DNA of 64,000 nucleotides from Flavobacteriales bacterium. Its GTDB lineage: Bacteria; Bacteroidota; Bacteroidia; Flavobacteriales_D; Crocinitomicaceae. The notes below the pieces were generated by a model that was given only the letters and a program-made list of their open reading frames with translations, did no database searches and was not told the DNA's origin. The DNA lies in the NCBI GenBank assembly GCA_947462255.1, contig CANHOA010000005.1, positions 1 through 64,000 of the forward strand, written 5' to 3'. The translations under genes were made by a program, and so were the position numbers. The number at the start of each line of letters is the position of its first letter. Position 1 is the first letter of the stretch. This document shows, piece after piece, positions 1 through 31,089 of this stretch.

Positions 1-156
1 GTGGCAGAGTATAACTTAGAATGTGTGATTAATGGACAAAGTTGTTATATTTTGGTTGATGATGTTTCAAAATTAGAAAAATGGACTCCTGCAATTACAA
101 ACGGAAAAAATTGCAACCAAAAAATGAGAATTAAAACATACATTCACTTTGAATAA
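1..156 (+). CDS. 3' end of a small hypothetical protein, truncated by the window edge (probable cassette gene)
   Basis: Open frame from base 1 (VAEYNLECVINGQSCYILVDDVSKLEKWTPAITNGKNCNQKMRIKTYIHFE*) ending at TAA 154-156, directly before an attC-like site. Confidence 0.5.
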   Translation: MAEYNLECVINGQSCYILVDDVSKLEKWTPAITNGKNCNQKMRIKTYIHFE

Positions 157-165
157 ACAATACCC

Positions 166-243
166 ATAACACGCAGTAAGCAATATGCCGCACAAACATA
201 CTCGAAAGAAAGCGCCACATCACCTACTGCGAAACCGTTATAG
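166..243 (+). repeat. Putative attC-like site A (integron cassette recombination site)
   Basis: ATAAC-A-CGCAGTA ... TACTGCG-AAACC-GTTATAG: perfect 7-bp inner arms (172-178 / 225-231) plus TAAC/GTTA outer arms with unequal spacers, lying between two small ORFs. Confidence 0.6.
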
Positions 244-274
244 CCAATAGACGTACACTATTAAATTGAAGAAA

Positions 275-682
275 ATGAAGAATAATAGATTAAAAAATAT
301 AATAACAACTGTATTATTATCGATTATTATTTTGGGATGTAAGAAAGTTACATTTCCTGATGGAGCATCTAAAGAAATTATCGGATCTTGGGAGTATCAA
401 TGGAATTCTGGCGGGTTTTCTGGTGGTGGCGGAAGTAATTTGTATAATGATAATTATTGGGTAGAATTTACGGATAAAGGTTACTTCATTGTATACAATG
501 GCTCAAAAAAGGAAAGTAAAAAGCGATTTAAAATAGAAATGAAAGAATCGATTTATGACAATGAATTAAGATCTGCAATAGTGTACAGAAATGGTTATGA
601 AACATACGAAATAAACAATGATATTCTTACAATAAGCGATGAACATTATGATGGTTATTCATATGTATTTAAGAAAAAATGA
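275..682 (+). CDS. Small lipoprotein, hypothetical (cassette ORF)
   Basis: ORF with signal peptide and lipobox-like ILGC; starts shortly after the GTTA of attC-like site A (ATG at 266 or 275). Confidence 0.65.
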   Translation: MKNNRLKNIITTVLLSIIILGCKKVTFPDGASKEIIGSWEYQWNSGGFSGGGGSNLYNDNYWVEFTDKGYFIVYNGSKKESKKRFKIEMKESIYDNELRSAIVYRNGYETYEINNDILTISDEHYDGYSYVFKKK

Positions 683-690
683 ACTGGCTA

Positions 691-822
691 TAACAGTGCC
701 TCAAGCGCCAACCTTCAAATCATGCTTCGAAACAAAGATACATTTGAAACAAAATAACTTTAACTTCGGAACAACGATTTATTTAAAGAGTCGGCCGAGC
801 GCCTAGGCGCAAACCGTTAGCA
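691..822 (+). repeat. Putative attC-like site B
   Basis: TAACAGTGCCTCAAGCGCC ... GCGCCTAGGCGCAAACCGTTAGC; partially complementary ends; interior resembles site C. Confidence 0.6.
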
Positions 823-835
823 GCAAACGACAACC

Positions 836-1315
836 ATGCAAAATCTGACACAAATATTAAACAAGGATAAAAACCAAAGAATTATTAATGGAATAATATT
901 TCTATTCCTTCTTATTTGGATAATTGCCAAATTAAGGTATGTCTATTATGCAAGTGGTATTATGATACACTATAAGTATGACCTGCTTAAATTGATTGCG
1001 TTAATATACTTGGCTCAAACAATCTTAAACAAAACTTGGCTTAATTCCATAACAAATGGCATTTATGCTATTTTGATAGGATACGTCCTGTACACTTACA
1101 TTTATTCCTACTTTGACGAGAATGATTTTGTTATACAAAAAGAATATGGTGTTCTAATAAAATCATGGGGGACTTTCGTCAAATTGTCAATACTGTTAAT
1201 AATTCTTTGGTTTACGATAAAACTAAGGCCAATTAAAAACAATACTTCTAACAGCCGTCATGGCGCCAGCCGTCAAATCTCACTTCGAAACAACGATAAT
1301 TTTGAAAGAAAATAA
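836..1315 (+). CDS. Small membrane protein, hypothetical (cassette ORF)
   Basis: ORF with several hydrophobic segments, ATG 14 bp after attC-like site B; C-terminus runs into attC-like site C. Confidence 0.6.
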   Translation: MQNLTQILNKDKNQRIINGIIFLFLLIWIIAKLRYVYYASGIMIHYKYDLLKLIALIYLAQTILNKTWLNSITNGIYAILIGYVLYTYIYSYFDENDFVIQKEYGVLIKSWGTFVKLSILLIILWFTIKLRPIKNNTSNSRHGASRQISLRNNDNFERK

Positions 1316-1379
1316 TTCTATCTTCGAAACAACAATTTATTTAAAAGTTGGGCCAAGCGCCAGGAACAAACCGTTAGCA
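1249..1379 (+). repeat. Putative attC-like site C
   Basis: TAACAGCCGTCATGGCGCCAGCC ... GGGCCAAGCGCCAGGAACAAACCGTTAGC; TGGCGC/GCGCCA and GGCC elements complementary; interior similar to site B. Confidence 0.6.
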
Positions 1380-1396
1380 TTAATTAAAACACGAAC

Positions 1397-1825
1397 TTGA
1401 AAAATCTAATTAAGATCAACACCTATTTAGGTTGGACGTTAGTAGTAGGGATAATTCTAACTCAGATTATTATCACTAAGGTTACTTTTGATATGGGAAG
1501 GATGGCACCTTTTATAGCTTTTTTGTCAGCAATAATATTTCTTCCCTTTACTATAACTGCAATAATGGGTGTTTTAAATAGAGAGCAACATCTCAATAAA
1601 ATAAAGATAGGAATTAATATTGGAATATTTTTTCAAGTCGTACTGCCTATAATTTTACCCCTTTTTTTCGATAAAGAGTTTATTTACTTTAGCTTGGTTG
1701 GTGTTTTTTTGGGTTTAGTTATGTTGTTCTTCAGGAAAAATATTGAAATGCAATTATTAATTCTCAATATAATTGGAGCTATCGTTTGGATTTTTATTTC
1801 CCTCGCAGGATTACTGAGTAATTAA
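1397..1825 (+). CDS. Small multi-pass membrane protein, hypothetical (cassette ORF)
   Basis: Hydrophobic ORF with TTG start about 18 bp after attC-like site C. Confidence 0.6.
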   Translation: MKNLIKINTYLGWTLVVGIILTQIIITKVTFDMGRMAPFIAFLSAIIFLPFTITAIMGVLNREQHLNKIKIGINIGIFFQVVLPIILPLFFDKEFIYFSLVGVFLGLVMLFFRKNIEMQLLILNIIGAIVWIFISLAGLLSN

Positions 1826-1991
1826 AACTAATGCTAATAAACAAATTTGAACAAAAATAATCTTAACTTCATAAAAAAGATTTATTTAAAGAGTTAGACC
1901 AAGATCCAAAGTTTTTATGTTAAACGTTTTTCGTTTTCTTAGATTTCGGCTTTTTTGCTAAGCGTGTGTTATAGAGTGTCAATTTTTATGG

Positions 1992-2255
1992 TCAATATTT
2001 TTTATACATTTTAAACTGTACAATTAAAATTGGAATCGTTAAAAGAACTATCAAATGTGGTAAAATTGTCGGATATGCACCCTGCAACATTGGTATGAAC
2101 ATACTTAATGCAAAACTATTTATTGCGAAATTGATGATAAATAACACTGCATTTAGGAATACTCTTTTACTAACTAAAAGCAAGAAACTACAAACAATAA
2201 TTCCAGCACTTATTAATGACGGTATGAAACCCATAAAGATTAATTCACCATCCAT
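1992..2255 (-). CDS. Small membrane protein, hypothetical (reverse-oriented ORF in cassette array)
   Basis: Hydrophobic 87-aa ORF with ATG start, opposite strand to neighbours. Confidence 0.5.
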   Translation of the reverse strand: MDGELIFMGFIPSLISAGIIVCSFLLLVSKRVFLNAVLFIINFAINSFALSMFIPMLQGAYPTILPHLIVLLTIPILIVQFKMYKKY

Positions 2256-2290
2256 TTATTGTATTTAATTTGTTCTGTACGTTATGCTCT

Positions 2291-2396
2291 TAACGTTTTG
2301 AGGCCTGGCGCTTGGACCACATCGCGGAGAAGCACCGAAAGTAAATAAAACTAACTTTAAAAAGTCTTTACGGTGCCAAGCTCGAAACCGTTATAA
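2291..2396 (+). repeat. Putative attC-like site D
   Basis: TAACGTTTTGAGGCCTGGCGCTTGG ... CCAAGCTCGAAACCGTTATAA; GCTTGG/CCAAGC and TTTGAG/CTCGAAA arms. Confidence 0.55.
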
Positions 2397-2425
2397 TAAT
2401 TAATAGACCATTAGCTGAATAAAGA

Positions 2426-3025
2426 ATGAAGCAAATTAAATTTTTATTGATTTTATTGGGCTTAACCTTATCGGGATGCAGCCTTTTTTTTGGAATAAGT
2501 AATCTAGAGCCCCAAAGTACCGATTCTGTAATCAAGTACGGAAGAAAAGTTGGCTATATCACGAATAAACAATTCTATTTTATTGATTCTTCAAAAATTG
2601 AAGAAATTTGGCGAGGAGCCTTTCCAAAAGCTTTTATTTATAATTCATCAGGAGAATTAGTCCAACACTTAAGTTGTTTTGCAACAGGCCCTTCTGATTT
2701 AGAATGGTTTTTCAGTAAAAATAATCATAGCGCTGTAAATGACACTATTATGCATCTTTTAGGAAGTGATACTATCATAAACATTGCTCCTAAATTTGAT
2801 AAATTAATGAAAAACATATATTCAAACGGAGGAAAGGTTGAATTTCCGGAATCAAAATATTACGTTATGTATTTCTGGTCTAAAAGCTTTGGAAAAATTA
2901 ATAAAAAAATTGCTGTTCCCATGGAGCAATACATAATAAATCACCCCGAATACGCTTCATCTTTTATTAAAATCAATTGTGATTATATGAAATCTTGGGG
3001 AGTGACAAAAAAAGATATTAATTGA
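2426..3025 (+). CDS. Lipoprotein, hypothetical (cassette ORF)
   Basis: ORF with signal peptide and lipobox LSGC; ATG about 30 bp after attC-like site D. Confidence 0.65.
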   Translation: MKQIKFLLILLGLTLSGCSLFFGISNLEPQSTDSVIKYGRKVGYITNKQFYFIDSSKIEEIWRGAFPKAFIYNSSGELVQHLSCFATGPSDLEWFFSKNNHSAVNDTIMHLLGSDTIINIAPKFDKLMKNIYSNGGKVEFPESKYYVMYFWSKSFGKINKKIAVPMEQYIINHPEYASSFIKINCDYMKSWGVTKKDIN

Positions 3026-3118
3026 TCCTTACAAAAAATACACGCTAGCGCAGAAACCTTAGCAACCATATCCATTTCCAAGAGCGGCTGAAAATTATTT
3101 TGTAACCGATGCGTATTT

Positions 3119-3134
3119 GGTGTATATTTACACC
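3119..3134. promoter_or_regulatory. Putative operator/promoter of the parDE-like module (GGTGTA-TATT-TACACC)
   Basis: Perfect 6-bp inverted repeat containing TATATTTA, about 20 bp downstream of a TTTTG (3098-3102), just upstream of the antitoxin ATG (3149). Confidence 0.45.
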
Positions 3135-3148
3135 ACAACTTAATTATC

Positions 3149-3388
3149 ATGAGAAGACAAAGTATTTCATTTACAGAACCAAATGACGAATGGTTAAAGA
3201 ATCAAATTGCTAATAAAGAGTACGCAAGCAAGAGTGAATTAGTTAATGATTTAATTCGTCAAGCGAGAAAACAAACTAATCAAATCGATTTAATTCGATT
3301 AAAATTAGAAAGAGCTGAAAAAGCTGGATTTACAAGCGATTCCAAATCAGAAATTTTGAAGCATTCTAAAAGTTTGCTTAATGGCTAA
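3149..3388 (+). CDS. ParD-like type II antitoxin (ribbon-helix-helix)
   Basis: 79 aa, MRRQSISFTEPNDEWLKNQIANKEYASKSELVNDLIRQAR typical of ParD/CC2985-type antitoxins; overlaps the toxin start ATGGCTAA. Confidence 0.85.
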   Translation: MRRQSISFTEPNDEWLKNQIANKEYASKSELVNDLIRQARKQTNQIDLIRLKLERAEKAGFTSDSKSEILKHSKSLLNG

Positions 3389-3668
3389 ATACAAATTAAG
3401 CAATGTTGCAAAGGAAGATTAAATCCGGATCCATCATTATGGCGTTAAGCAATTTGGAATGAAACAAGCAGATAACTACTTTGAATCTTTCTTTGTACAC
3501 TTTGAACTTATTACGAAAAATCCAAAATCATTCGAATCTGTTGATTTTATCAAGCCTGGATACCAACGATGTGTATGTGGTGTAGATAGTATATTCTACA
3601 AAATGAATGAAGATGTCGTGGAAATTATGACAATCATTGGAAGACAGGATCTTAATCAATTGCTATAA
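3381..3668 (+). pseudogene. ParE-like toxin, interrupted by in-frame TAA at 3420-3422
   Basis: MAKYKLSNVAKED*IRIHHYGVKQFGMKQADNYFESFF...CVCGVDSIFYKMNEDVVEIMTIIGRQDLNQLL; both halves in the same frame. Confidence 0.75.
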
Positions 3669-3800
3669 ACTTTAACAGTTGCTAACACAGGGTAAGCGCA
3701 AAAACGAGAATTTAGTAACGGTAATGGACAAGCTTTCGATTATTGAACCGCAACTAAAACTGATTTTGAAAATCGGCTCCTTCGCTAAAGGTGGGAACAG

Positions 3801-4148
3801 TTACGGCCGGTAGGTCTTGCGGATATATACTTTCATCGCTTCCCTTTTTAGGATGGCATTCGTGAGCAAGACGAAGTAATTTGGACTACCTTCTATTTCC
3901 CTTAGCCATGATTCGGGAAGATCAATTACATATAACAGCGACCTTAAATCAAGGTGCTTATTCTCCTGCAGCTCAGACAATAAAAAAGCCACCAACATTG
4001 AAGGGTCAAGAAATAACTCAGCAGGAAAAGATATACTGCATGCGCTACGTTCAAGATCTTTACGCAGTTGGACTTGAATGTCAGCTAACAACTCGTTTTG
4101 AGAAAGTTGAATGCTAGGGTATTGAGTACTAATTTGAAGCCAGTCCAT
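3801..4148 (-). CDS. Hypothetical protein (115 aa)
   Basis: ORF with plausible protein composition; preferred over the overlapping + strand ORF 3881-4117. Confidence 0.55.
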   Translation of the reverse strand: MDWLQISTQYPSIQLSQNELLADIQVQLRKDLERSACSISFPAELFLDPSMLVAFLLSELQENKHLDLRSLLYVIDLPESWLREIEGSPNYFVLLTNAILKREAMKVYIRKTYRP

Positions 4149-4265: not shown

Positions 4266-5807
4266 ATGTTAGTAAAAACCTATACAAGCAGTGTTTTTGG
4301 AATTACTGCCACCACCATAACCATCGAAGTGAATTTGGGCATTGGAATCAACTTTTTCATGGTCGGACTTCCCGATAATTCGGTAAAAGAAAGTCAACAA
4401 CGGATTCGCGCCTCCTTCAAAAACAACAACTATAAATTTCCAGGAAAAGAAATTACGGTTAATCTTGCGCCAGCAGATATTAGAAAAGAGGGATCCGTTT
4501 ATGATCTCCCAATTGCTATTGGCATCTTAGCAGTTAGTGAACAAGTTCAGACCGAACGATTAAAAGAATATATATTAATCGGCGAATTATCATTGGACGG
4601 CTCCATTCAAGTAACAAAAGGAATTTTACCAATCGCTTTACAAGCAAAGAAAGAAGGATTCAAGGGAATTATTATTCCCTTAGAAAATTGCAAAGAAGCA
4701 AGCGTTGTCCTTGGACTTGATGTGCTTGGCGCAAAAAACATAGACGAGGTAGTTAATTTTTTAAATGGCACCGGCACACTTAGTCCAAGTCAATTCAATA
4801 TGGCCGATACATTTTATGAACAGCAAAAGATTTCCGATGTTGACTTTAAAGACGTTAAAGGGCAATTTAGTATTAAGCGTGCCTTTGAAATCGCTGCAGC
4901 AGGTGGCCACAATGTAATTTTGATTGGCCCCCCAGGCGCTGGAAAATCCATGCTTGCAAAAAGATTATCCACCATACTACCGCCGATGTCGATGGAAGAA
5001 GCATTAGAAACAACCAAAATTCATAGCGTGGCAGGGAAAGTAAAAATAAACCGGGGATTGCTTACCCAACGGCCCTTCCGAAAACCTCATCACACCATAT
5101 CAGACATCGCCTTAGTTGGAGGAGGAACCTATCCACAACCGGGTGAAATTTCTCTGGCGCACAACGGCGTATTATTTTTAGACGAATTACCCGAATACAA
5201 AAGGGGCGTACTGGAAGTTTTGAGACAGCCATTGGAAGACCGATTCATCACGATTTCCCGTGCGAAATTCACAGTCGATTTTCCGGCAAGTTTTATGCTA
5301 ATTGCCGCCATGAATCCTTGTCCGTGTGGCTACTTCAACCACCCAGAAAAAGAGTGTGTTTGCGGACCAGGCGTGGTGCAGCGCTACCTTAACAAAATAT
5401 CCGGACCCTTATTAGACCGCATCGATTTACACGTGGAAGTGACGCCCGTTAGCTACGATGAATTAACCTCTACCATTCCAAATGAAAATAGCGCATCGAT
5501 ACGAACCAGGGTCATAAAAGCGCGGGGCATTCAAGAAAAACGTTACTTAGAAACGACCGAAACCCATTGCAACGCACAAATGACACAAGCAGAATTTGAA
5601 TTACATTGTAAGGCAGATGAGCAAGGACACCTGATGATTAAGCAAGCGATGCAAAAAATGGGCTTATCAGCGCGAGCCTTTGAACGCATTTTAAAAGTGG
5701 CAAGGACCATTGCCGATCTCGACGAACATGAAAAAATTCAAGTGAATCACATCGCCGAAGCGATCCAGTTTAGAAGTTTGGATAAAGGGAATTGGGGGAG
5801 TAATTAA
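4266..5807 (+). CDS. comM: YifB/ComM family Mg chelatase-like AAA+ ATPase
   Basis: Walker [47 protein letters not shown]; full-length. Confidence 0.95.
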
Positions 5808-6068: not shown

Positions 6069-6117
6069 TGGATTAATGGGTTGCGGACGGGGTTATGGGT
6101 TGCGGACAGGGTTATGG

Positions 6118-6159
6118 GTTGCATGTAGAGACGTGCAATTGCACGTCTCTACATGCAAC
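6118..6159. repeat. REP-like perfect 42-bp palindrome (GTTGCATGTAGAGACGTGCAATTGCACGTCTCTACATGCAAC)
   Basis: Perfect inverted repeat read directly; flanked by short tandem repeats of GGGTTGCGGAC(G/A)GGGTTAT and AACGAAACCA(T/C)CA(C/T)CAAACGC. Confidence 0.85.
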
Positions 6160-6226
6160 GAAACCATCACCAAACGCAACGAAACCACCATCAAACGCAA
6201 CGAAACCATCACCGCATTACATTGTT

Positions 6227-6807
6227 TCAACGGTTATTCATATTAAATGAATCATTTTTCCATTTCAATGGATTGTTATCAATGTATCGACGAATGGCAT
6301 TTAACGCATTATCGTTTCGAATAATAATATCATGATACCGTGATTGCCATTCAAAATCAATTTTATTTTGGTTGGCATATCTTTTTACCGATGATTTGAA
6401 TGCGCAGGGAACCGTGTCTTTCGACTTCGCTCAATCCACTTTCAAGAGCACATCGAGCGGAGTCGAGAAGGGCTCAAATCAACTGATTGCACACCAAATT
6501 GATTTGGATTCCAATCCTTTTTATCTGGCCTATTGAAAAATAATACCCCATGAATATGATTAGGCATAACAATTAAATGATCGATTTCGACAAAGGGATA
6601 ATGCGCTGGAATTTCTTTCCAGAAATTATTGGCAATTTTGCCGATTTCAGTAAAAACGGATATTTCACCAAAATAATTTATGCGATTTTTGGTACAAATG
6701 GTAACGAAATAATGTCCATGCGATCCATAATCATATCCTTGCAGTCGGGCTGATTCAATACGGTATTTGTTTTGAAATTTTGTGATTGTTATTTTTTTCG
6801 TCAACAA
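6227..6807 (-). pseudogene. REP-associated tyrosine transposase (RAYT; Y1_Tnp/HUH), interrupted
   Basis: N-terminal part GHYFVTICTKNR...VEIDHLIVMPNHIHGVLF (HxH motif); C-terminal part FEWQSRYHDIIIRNDNALNAIRRYIDNNPLKW in another frame. Confidence 0.8.
6418..6470. repeat. 53-bp imperfect hairpin inserted in the RAYT gene
   Basis: CTTTCGACTTCGCTC (6418-6432) complementary with few mismatches to GAGCGGAGTCGAGAAG (6455-6470). Confidence 0.75.
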
Positions 6808-30106: not shown

Positions 30107-31089
30107 AAAGAATACTCATTACAGGAGCGGCAGGTTTCTTAGGCTCACATCTTTGTGATCGGTTTATTAAAGACGGGTATCATGTGATTGGTATGGACAA
30201 CCTCATCACTGGAAATTTAAAAAACATCGAGCACCTTTTTAAACTAGAACACTTTGAGTTTTACCACCACGACATTTCTAAATTTATCCATGTTCCAGGA
30301 AAACTAGACTTTATTCTTCACTTTGCATCGCCTGCTAGCCCGATTGATTACCTAAAAATTCCGATTCAAACCTTAAAAGTAGGCTCTTTAGGTGTTCATA
30401 ATTGCCTTGGTTTAGCAAAAACAAAATCAGCACGCGTGCTGATTGCATCTACTTCTGAAGTATACGGAGACCCAGAGGTGCATCCGCAGCACGAAGATTA
30501 TTGGGGCAATGTAAATCCGGTTGGACCGAGAGGAGTATACGATGAAGCCAAACGATTTCAAGAAGCGATTACCATGGCGTATCATAATTTTCACGGCTTG
30601 GAAACAAGAATTGCTCGGATATTTAATACCTATGGTCCGAGAATGCGGCTAAACGATGGTCGAGTACTCCCAGCATTTATTGGGCAGGCACTACGCGGAG
30701 AAGATTTAACCGTATTTGGAGATGGTTCTCAAACACGTTCCTTTTGCTATGTTGACGATCTTATCGAGGGCATCGTACGTTTATTACACAGTGATTGTTC
30801 TGACCCAGTTAACCTTGGAAACCCAGCGGAAATAACCATTGATCAGTTCGCAAAAGAAATCATTGAGCTAACAAATACAACGCAAAAAGTTGTTTATAAA
30901 TCATTGCCAATCGATGATCCGAAACAACGAAGACCAGATATTACAAAAGCAAATACACTACTGAATTGGAATCCTACCATTGATCGTAAAGAGGGCCTAA
31001 ATAGGACTTACTCCTATTTTTTAAGCTTGTCGAAGGAGGAATTAATGGCAACAGAACATAATAATTTTGATAAATACATCATCTCGTAA
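30103..31089 (+). CDS. NAD-dependent epimerase/dehydratase, UDP-glucuronate decarboxylase-like
   Basis: [48 protein letters not shown]. Confidence 0.9.

Follow-up and report, generated by a model that had tools for sequence, protein, structure and literature searches.

How a run of short genes separated by repeated segments came to lie at the left end of this contig, and which enzyme put it there, is the question that the locus raises. The window, the whole stretch of 64,000 nucleotides that was analysed, lies on contig C5 in the genome of an uncultured Flavobacteriales bacterium. A sequence-only reading had described positions 1-2400 as a CALIN, an array of integron-type cassettes without an integrase, with attC sites at 166-243, 691-822, 1249-1379 and 2291-2396.

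Cassettes and attC sites in the window

The motif AAACCGTTA was found in four exact copies in the 64 kb (at 232, 811, 1368 and 2385), all on the plus strand and all within 2.2 kb, against 0.75 copies expected by chance; at least four copies were reached in none of 100 dinucleotide shuffles. The limits given for the four attC sites proved correct to within a few bases. The extent of the array had been drawn too short: its real span is 1-3808, with the right end at about 3808, and an eroded attC (about 1798-1915), a ParD/ParE cassette (about 3059-3686) and a distal attC (3676-3808) had been missed. Co-oriented attC sites, one per short cassette, are present at 161, 686, 1244, 2286 and 3676, and within 1-3808 we also recognized two eroded attC sites, one inverted cassette and one ParD/ParE toxin-antitoxin cassette. 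Its truncation at base 1 reflects the start of the contig.

Read from the left, and on the plus strand unless stated, the array opens with the 3' part of a cassette open reading frame (ORF) (1-156) cut by the contig end, a complete 128-aa copy of which is present on contig C28 of the same genome (L023:10515-10901). A short-type attC (161-245; 25.3 bits with the covariance model R1 described below) precedes an ORF that is lipoprotein-like by eye (275-682), and a long-type attC (686-824; 137.5 bits) precedes a 159-aa ORF that looks like a membrane protein (836-1315); neither ORF had a Pfam match. The latter ORF, which has an 87% DNA match at G112:C47, ends inside the next long-type attC (1244-1381; 134.9 bits). 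A 142-aa ORF, again a membrane protein by eye (1397-1825), belongs to a cassette also found on contig C8 of genome G079 (399/400), and it is followed by an eroded attC (1798-1915; 32.5 bits) with a fuller equivalent in G079 (L025:12790-12912). The cassette at 1904-2316, with an 87-aa ORF at 1992-2255, lies on the minus strand, opposite to its orientation in G079:C8 and G217:C33; positions 30428-30818 of G079:C8 match window 1925-2315 at 100% in opposite orientation. The earlier description of one site per ORF in the same orientation therefore holds in general but fails for this inverted cassette. The breakpoints of the inversion fall within complementary CCAAG/CTTGG arms of attC sites.

To the right of the inversion lie a hybrid attC (2286-2398; 20.9 bits, E 0.075) and a 199-aa ORF, lipoprotein-like by eye (2426-3025), whose cassette is also present in G079 (596/600). 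The right end of an eroded attC (AACCTTAGCAACC, 3055-3067) starts the toxin-antitoxin cassette, which holds a ParD-like antitoxin (3149-3388; frame open, weak Pfam match slightly below the cut-off) and a ParE-like toxin gene (3381-3668) with an early in-frame stop here that is open in G079 (PF05016). Toxin-antitoxin pairs are usual integron cargo. The last attC (3676-3808) is of a third sequence type with homologues in L025, L027 and L029; R1 matched the L027 homologue (42.9 bits) but not the window copy. Beyond it, the right flank begins with a yifB-type chromosomal gene (4266-5807). Farther right, short repeated units with repetitive translations in several frames occupy 6090-6250, and a minus-strand ORF at 6442-6807, with a PNHIHG motif, resembles by eye a REP-associated transposase. 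An Rfam search of the window gave no match at the gathering threshold. A PADLOC search of the window ORFs also gave no match, and the anti-phage role hinted at earlier is without support for these ORFs.

In an array the two outer ends of a cassette fall in separate attC sites, and in the circle they would form a single site, which makes them complementary: over 10 nt for cassette 237-694 (GTTATAGCCA at 237, TGGCTATAAC at 685) and over 9 nt for the fifth cassette, 3055-3686 (AACCTTAGCAACC at 3055, GTTGCTAAC at 3678). Folding of the bottom strand was clear for site 1 (161-245; z = -5.4 versus its own shuffles). Whole-site values for sites 2 to 4 were -1.0, -1.5 and -2.3, weak because the terminal loop is long and poorly structured, and whole-site folding energy was dropped as a test of attC. 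We therefore aligned, in bottom-strand orientation, 15 full-length sites of the long type taken from the window's genome and its relatives; an earlier MAFFT alignment restricted to the window's four sites had left the 3' halves unaligned. The consensus stem has 18 pairs in four helices, with standard pairs in 83% of cells across the 15 sites. Its covariation score was 0.289, compared with a shuffled mean of 0.134 (reached in 0/500 shuffles) and with at most 0.085 when slid, and RNAalifold recovered a similar stem unaided. The inner arms vary by site (AGTGCC/GGCGC, AGCTG/CAGC, CCGGG/CCCG, AGCAAG/CTTGC) around a conserved loop, as in VCR-type attC. The consensus contains asymmetric internal loops, whose positions shift with the alignment. 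This covariation supports an imperfect bottom-strand hairpin as the predicted structure of the attC arms.

A covariance-model search had been proposed as a check on these sites, and the lineage-built model R1 matches them. R1 was built only from attC sites of the window's genus, and its E-values are rough. It matched five sites in the window, two of which (686 and 1244) belong to its own training sites, and gave no match at E <= 0.1 in the remaining 60 kb.

The prfA-yifB locus and the XerA-like integrase

Related genomes place the array in a chromosomal context. In G079 a single contig carries it, flanked by prfA and an ABC-transporter/yifB block and lacking an integrase. In the sister genome G309 (contig C57) an open integrase gene sits beside prfA, cut by the contig end to which it points and at which the array would begin. 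On contig C23 of our genome, prfA is adjoined by an attI (crossover near L138:3779) and a first cassette, and the position of the integrase holds only a frameshifted tail spread over three frames (THVSTK / IQQIKS / PFDNL). That first cassette (L138:364-3709) is unusually large and contains several ORFs in one orientation, one of them for an SPFH/Band 7 protein. A second integron of the same genome, on C17, has an intact non-canonical integrase and an attI. Joining C23 to C5 by synteny, we consider that the window array most likely forms the distal part of an integron flanked by prfA and yifB. Of the CALIN description, the integron-type cassettes with attC and the lack of an integrase in the window stand, but the orphan status is unsupported given the attI and integrase tail on C23, the integrase by prfA in G309 and the C17 integron. 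With the prfA-yifB integrase decayed to a stub in its own genome, the window array would now be a relic, except insofar as the intact C17 integrase may act on it in trans.

The C17 integrase is an intact, 279-aa XerA-like tyrosine recombinase; relatives elsewhere have 350-415 aa, with an N-terminal extension. It passed the XerA profile NF040815 (223.9 bits, cut-off 220), which a 375-aa protein of G284 missed slightly (213.7), and fell below the integron-integrase profile TIGR02249 (215 bits, cut-off 265). The best matches among solved structures were XerA of Pyrococcus abyssi (4a8e, the top match) and VchIntIA (2a3v); in the alignment to VchIntIA, residues 180-242 are skipped, with about 21 residues in their place. 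The spacing from GKGxK to RHS is 65-66 residues in 40/40 XerA-like recombinases, drawn from the genus, other families and Chryseobacterium and seen linked to arrays for part of the set, compared with 107-108 in two true IntIs. Absent from all 40 are about 41 residues that hold the additional (I2) domain in IntI, the part with W..FPS..RHH, a stretch typical of IntI. Directly upstream of the C17 integrase lie three tandem similar genes (L007:9300-10822; about 170 aa, ORF6N/KilA-N-like by eye), and similar tandem copies lie upstream of a 375-aa integrase in G079 (contig C13; L067:7004-8355). Elsewhere, short XerA-like recombinases form pairs with transposases of the IS91 or another type (L210:10925-11704, L214:2962-3852), a different use of a related enzyme.

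By Pfam, this genome has only three tyrosine recombinases, encoded on C17, C2 and C9. The C2 and C9 proteins scored below the C17 protein with the integron profile and are taken for the housekeeping XerC and XerD, leaving the C17 protein as the recombinase candidate in an assembly that is 95% complete. Canonical IntI was found in 0/295 genomes of the order (IntI-profile search, 1e-50), in 0/86 genus genomes above the TIGR02249 cut-off, and in 0/26 genomes of the class chosen for attC-model matches.

attI and arrays in the genus and in other Bacteroidia, and exchange at G^TT

The attI is seen as a conserved 90-102 nt 3' of the integrase stop codon, whose end reads TATA, then a short run of bases, then GTT; beyond it sequences diverge. 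It is present in about 25 genus loci, nearly all of those with enough sequence, where its distance and orientation relative to the XerA-like gene are nearly fixed. Single attIs show inverted repeats; RNAalifold over 22 sequences found no common stem. R1 detected attC at 17 of 38 integrase loci, downstream and co-oriented in 17/17 loci and in 22/22 matches, of which two (L065) lie within the model alignment and four of the weakest exceed an E of 0.1. Under random placement and strand at independent loci, the chance of 17/17 would be 0.25^17 = 6e-11. About half of the integrase loci gave no attC match, many because the contig ends; contigs ended less than 500 bp from the integrase downstream at 10/38 loci versus upstream at 1/38 (p = 2e-4), an excess expected if a variable array begins there. 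It is common for XerA-like recombinases to have no array. Arrays in G413 and G547 lie near differently placed integrases without a matching attI, and the divergent integrase-array arrangement in G366, G413 and G547 was left uncounted for lack of an attI match.

Within the genus, R1 matched in 47/86 genomes, with up to 17 matches per genome. The genome of the window has 12, on C5, C10, C17, C20, C28 and other contigs. On C28, small genes in one orientation, accompanied by attC sites, fill about 13 kb and include a parDE pair, an acyltransferase and a kinase-like protein, and C10 encodes a CdiI-like protein. Off the main arrays, on C20, a single attC lies directly 3' of a PADLOC PDC-S54 match (465.6 bits, a candidate defence protein; L132:9398-10772). 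Beyond the genus, an integrase followed by attI (TATAAGTAAGTTA or a similar sequence) and then by co-oriented attC was found at L190 (G697) and L195 (G492), and co-oriented attC sites lie downstream of the integrase at L200 (G508, four attC) and L208 (G610, three attC). A Chryseobacterium oryzae plasmid carries an integrase (61.9% identical), then a matching attI and then a VOC-family gene. Isolated R1 matches near 47-53 bits in distant genomes of the class and phylum were unreliable, may be false, and were left uncounted.

Given this cis linkage and the absence of another candidate, the XerA-like recombinase, whose gene immediately precedes attI and is co-directional with the cassettes, is the most likely enzyme. 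Comparative sequence evidence thus leaves us confident that the window array is the distal end of the prfA-yifB chromosomal integron, with its cassettes inserted most likely by an I2-less XerA-like recombinase. Were the array an ordinary CALIN instead, its cassettes would have come from the canonical IntI of other bacteria and been stranded without a local enzyme. The window does lack an integrase, other phyla have canonical integrons and CALINs are frequent (PMC9024848). However, the local attC family recurs in more than half of the genus genomes, lineage-specific attIs adjoin a lineage-specific integrase, the sister genome has an integrase gene at the same locus, and the sampled order, the genus and the class genomes chosen for attC-model matches contain no IntI-scoring genome. 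We consider such an origin improbable.

Between genomes, identity stops at GTT. The cassette before site 1 and its C28 copy are identical at 226/231 positions up to GTT and then at 38/69, and a 178-aa cassette shared by G079 and G188 is identical at 399/400 and then at 38/72. Two attIs that themselves align at only 53/101 are followed by the same first cassette (149/150 identical from GTT on), and the cassette at the attI of G008 stands after an attC in G323 (144/150 after GTT, 49/102 before it). Boundaries of this kind at GTT recur in several independent genome pairs. Judged from these alignments, the junctions show the pattern that site-specific exchange between attI and attC leaves, with G^TT as the crossover. 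The comparison of cassettes among related genomes that the sequence-only reading had called for found them in orders and contexts that differ; the junctions, together with the AAACCGTTA enrichment and the covariation, identify its four segments as genuine attC sites. On this reading each unit is a mobile cassette of one gene or toxin-antitoxin pair and a folded attC. As the arrays, covarying stems, exact junctions and conserved attI show at the sequence level, cassettes have entered at an attI some 90 bp 3' of the integrase gene and have been joined to others at attC, with crossover at G^TT; the recombinase would use the folded single strand of attC.

The same junctions bear on whether housekeeping XerC/XerD move the cassettes, as they do Xer-exploiting mobile elements, with the XerA-like gene as a passenger. 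XerC and XerD belong, like the XerA-like protein, to the Xer group of tyrosine recombinases, and CTXphi integrates via host XerCD in a manner resembling cassette recombination (PMC4792948). But the cassettes cross over at G^TT, like those of integrons, inspection by eye showed no dif-like site at cassette junctions, and the near-fixed placement of attI is relative to the XerA-like gene; a role for XerC/XerD is thus highly improbable. That the repeats are REP- or MITE-like hairpins between fixed chromosomal genes, rather than recombination sites, has a negligible chance of being right: several sites share 75-90% of their sequence and an ORF resembling a REP transposase is close by, but this reading is contradicted by the junctions at GTT, by genes that change freely between sites, by outer arms that match within a cassette and by inner arms that covary despite differing sequence.

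Relation to known integrons

The XerA-driven integron favored here resembles canonical integrons (class 1 and Vibrio chromosomal) in its single-gene co-oriented cassettes, attI beside the integrase, G^TT crossover, bottom-strand attC fold with a variable terminal loop, and cargo of toxin-antitoxin and unknown genes. It differs in an integrase that has no additional/I2 domain and whose gene is read toward the cassettes, in right ends of GTTA plus variable bases versus strict GTTRRRY, and in predicted asymmetric internal loops versus the classic single extrahelical G and T bases. A co-directional arrangement is also found in Treponema, where the intI product is presumably a canonical IntI, unlike the XerA-like integrase here. 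In the Treponema chromosomal integrons, integrase and cassettes are co-directional and the enzyme was named intI (PMC3607928). Like a CALIN, the window has at least two attC sites and no recognizable intI; unlike one, its array goes with an attI and an integrase remnant on another contig, most likely of the same chromosomal locus. Standard software would probably score the window as a CALIN, since the IntI-profile search of the order found nothing (0/295). From XerA, whose 4a8e structure is closest by sequence and whose profile cut-off the enzyme passes, the integrase differs in being followed by attI and cassettes and in a C-terminal ...RSPFDDL that is IntI-like rather than 4a8e-like by eye.

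The additional domain is regarded as defining for integron integrases and necessary for cassette recombination (PMC9668308, on archaeal integrons); for the latter, Messier and Roy 2001 is the source as cited in PMC2426708. I2 is described as a domain of 20 residues that makes room for attC's extrahelical bases (PMC4792948). Within the searchable literature, which covers only a minority of subscription papers and no preprints, we found no description of an I2-less integron integrase. As judged from sequence comparison, the system works like an integron yet falls outside canonical IntI by profile and by I2. We consider it likely that Bacteroidia have their own integron class, in which an I2-less XerA-like integrase captures and shuffles folded attC cassettes. 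Bacteroidota are among the phyla listed with integrons (PMC9668308), but Bacteroidetes had only In0 elements in a first survey and then one complete integron, in Salinibacter ruber (IntegronFinder 2.0, PMC9024848). A detector that requires I2 would score loci such as these as CALINs, which may explain the near-absence of complete Bacteroidetes integrons in reports.

Whether attC sites or the domain reading them came first has been called a "chicken-egg paradox" (PMC4792948). If our reading is true, the I2-less integrase would be either a survivor of a pre-I2 state or an independent solution, and would bear on the origin of attC recognition. If the enzyme works, that paradox would become testable in a living system, and a large cassette pool in Bacteroidia, mostly of unknown function, would be opened.
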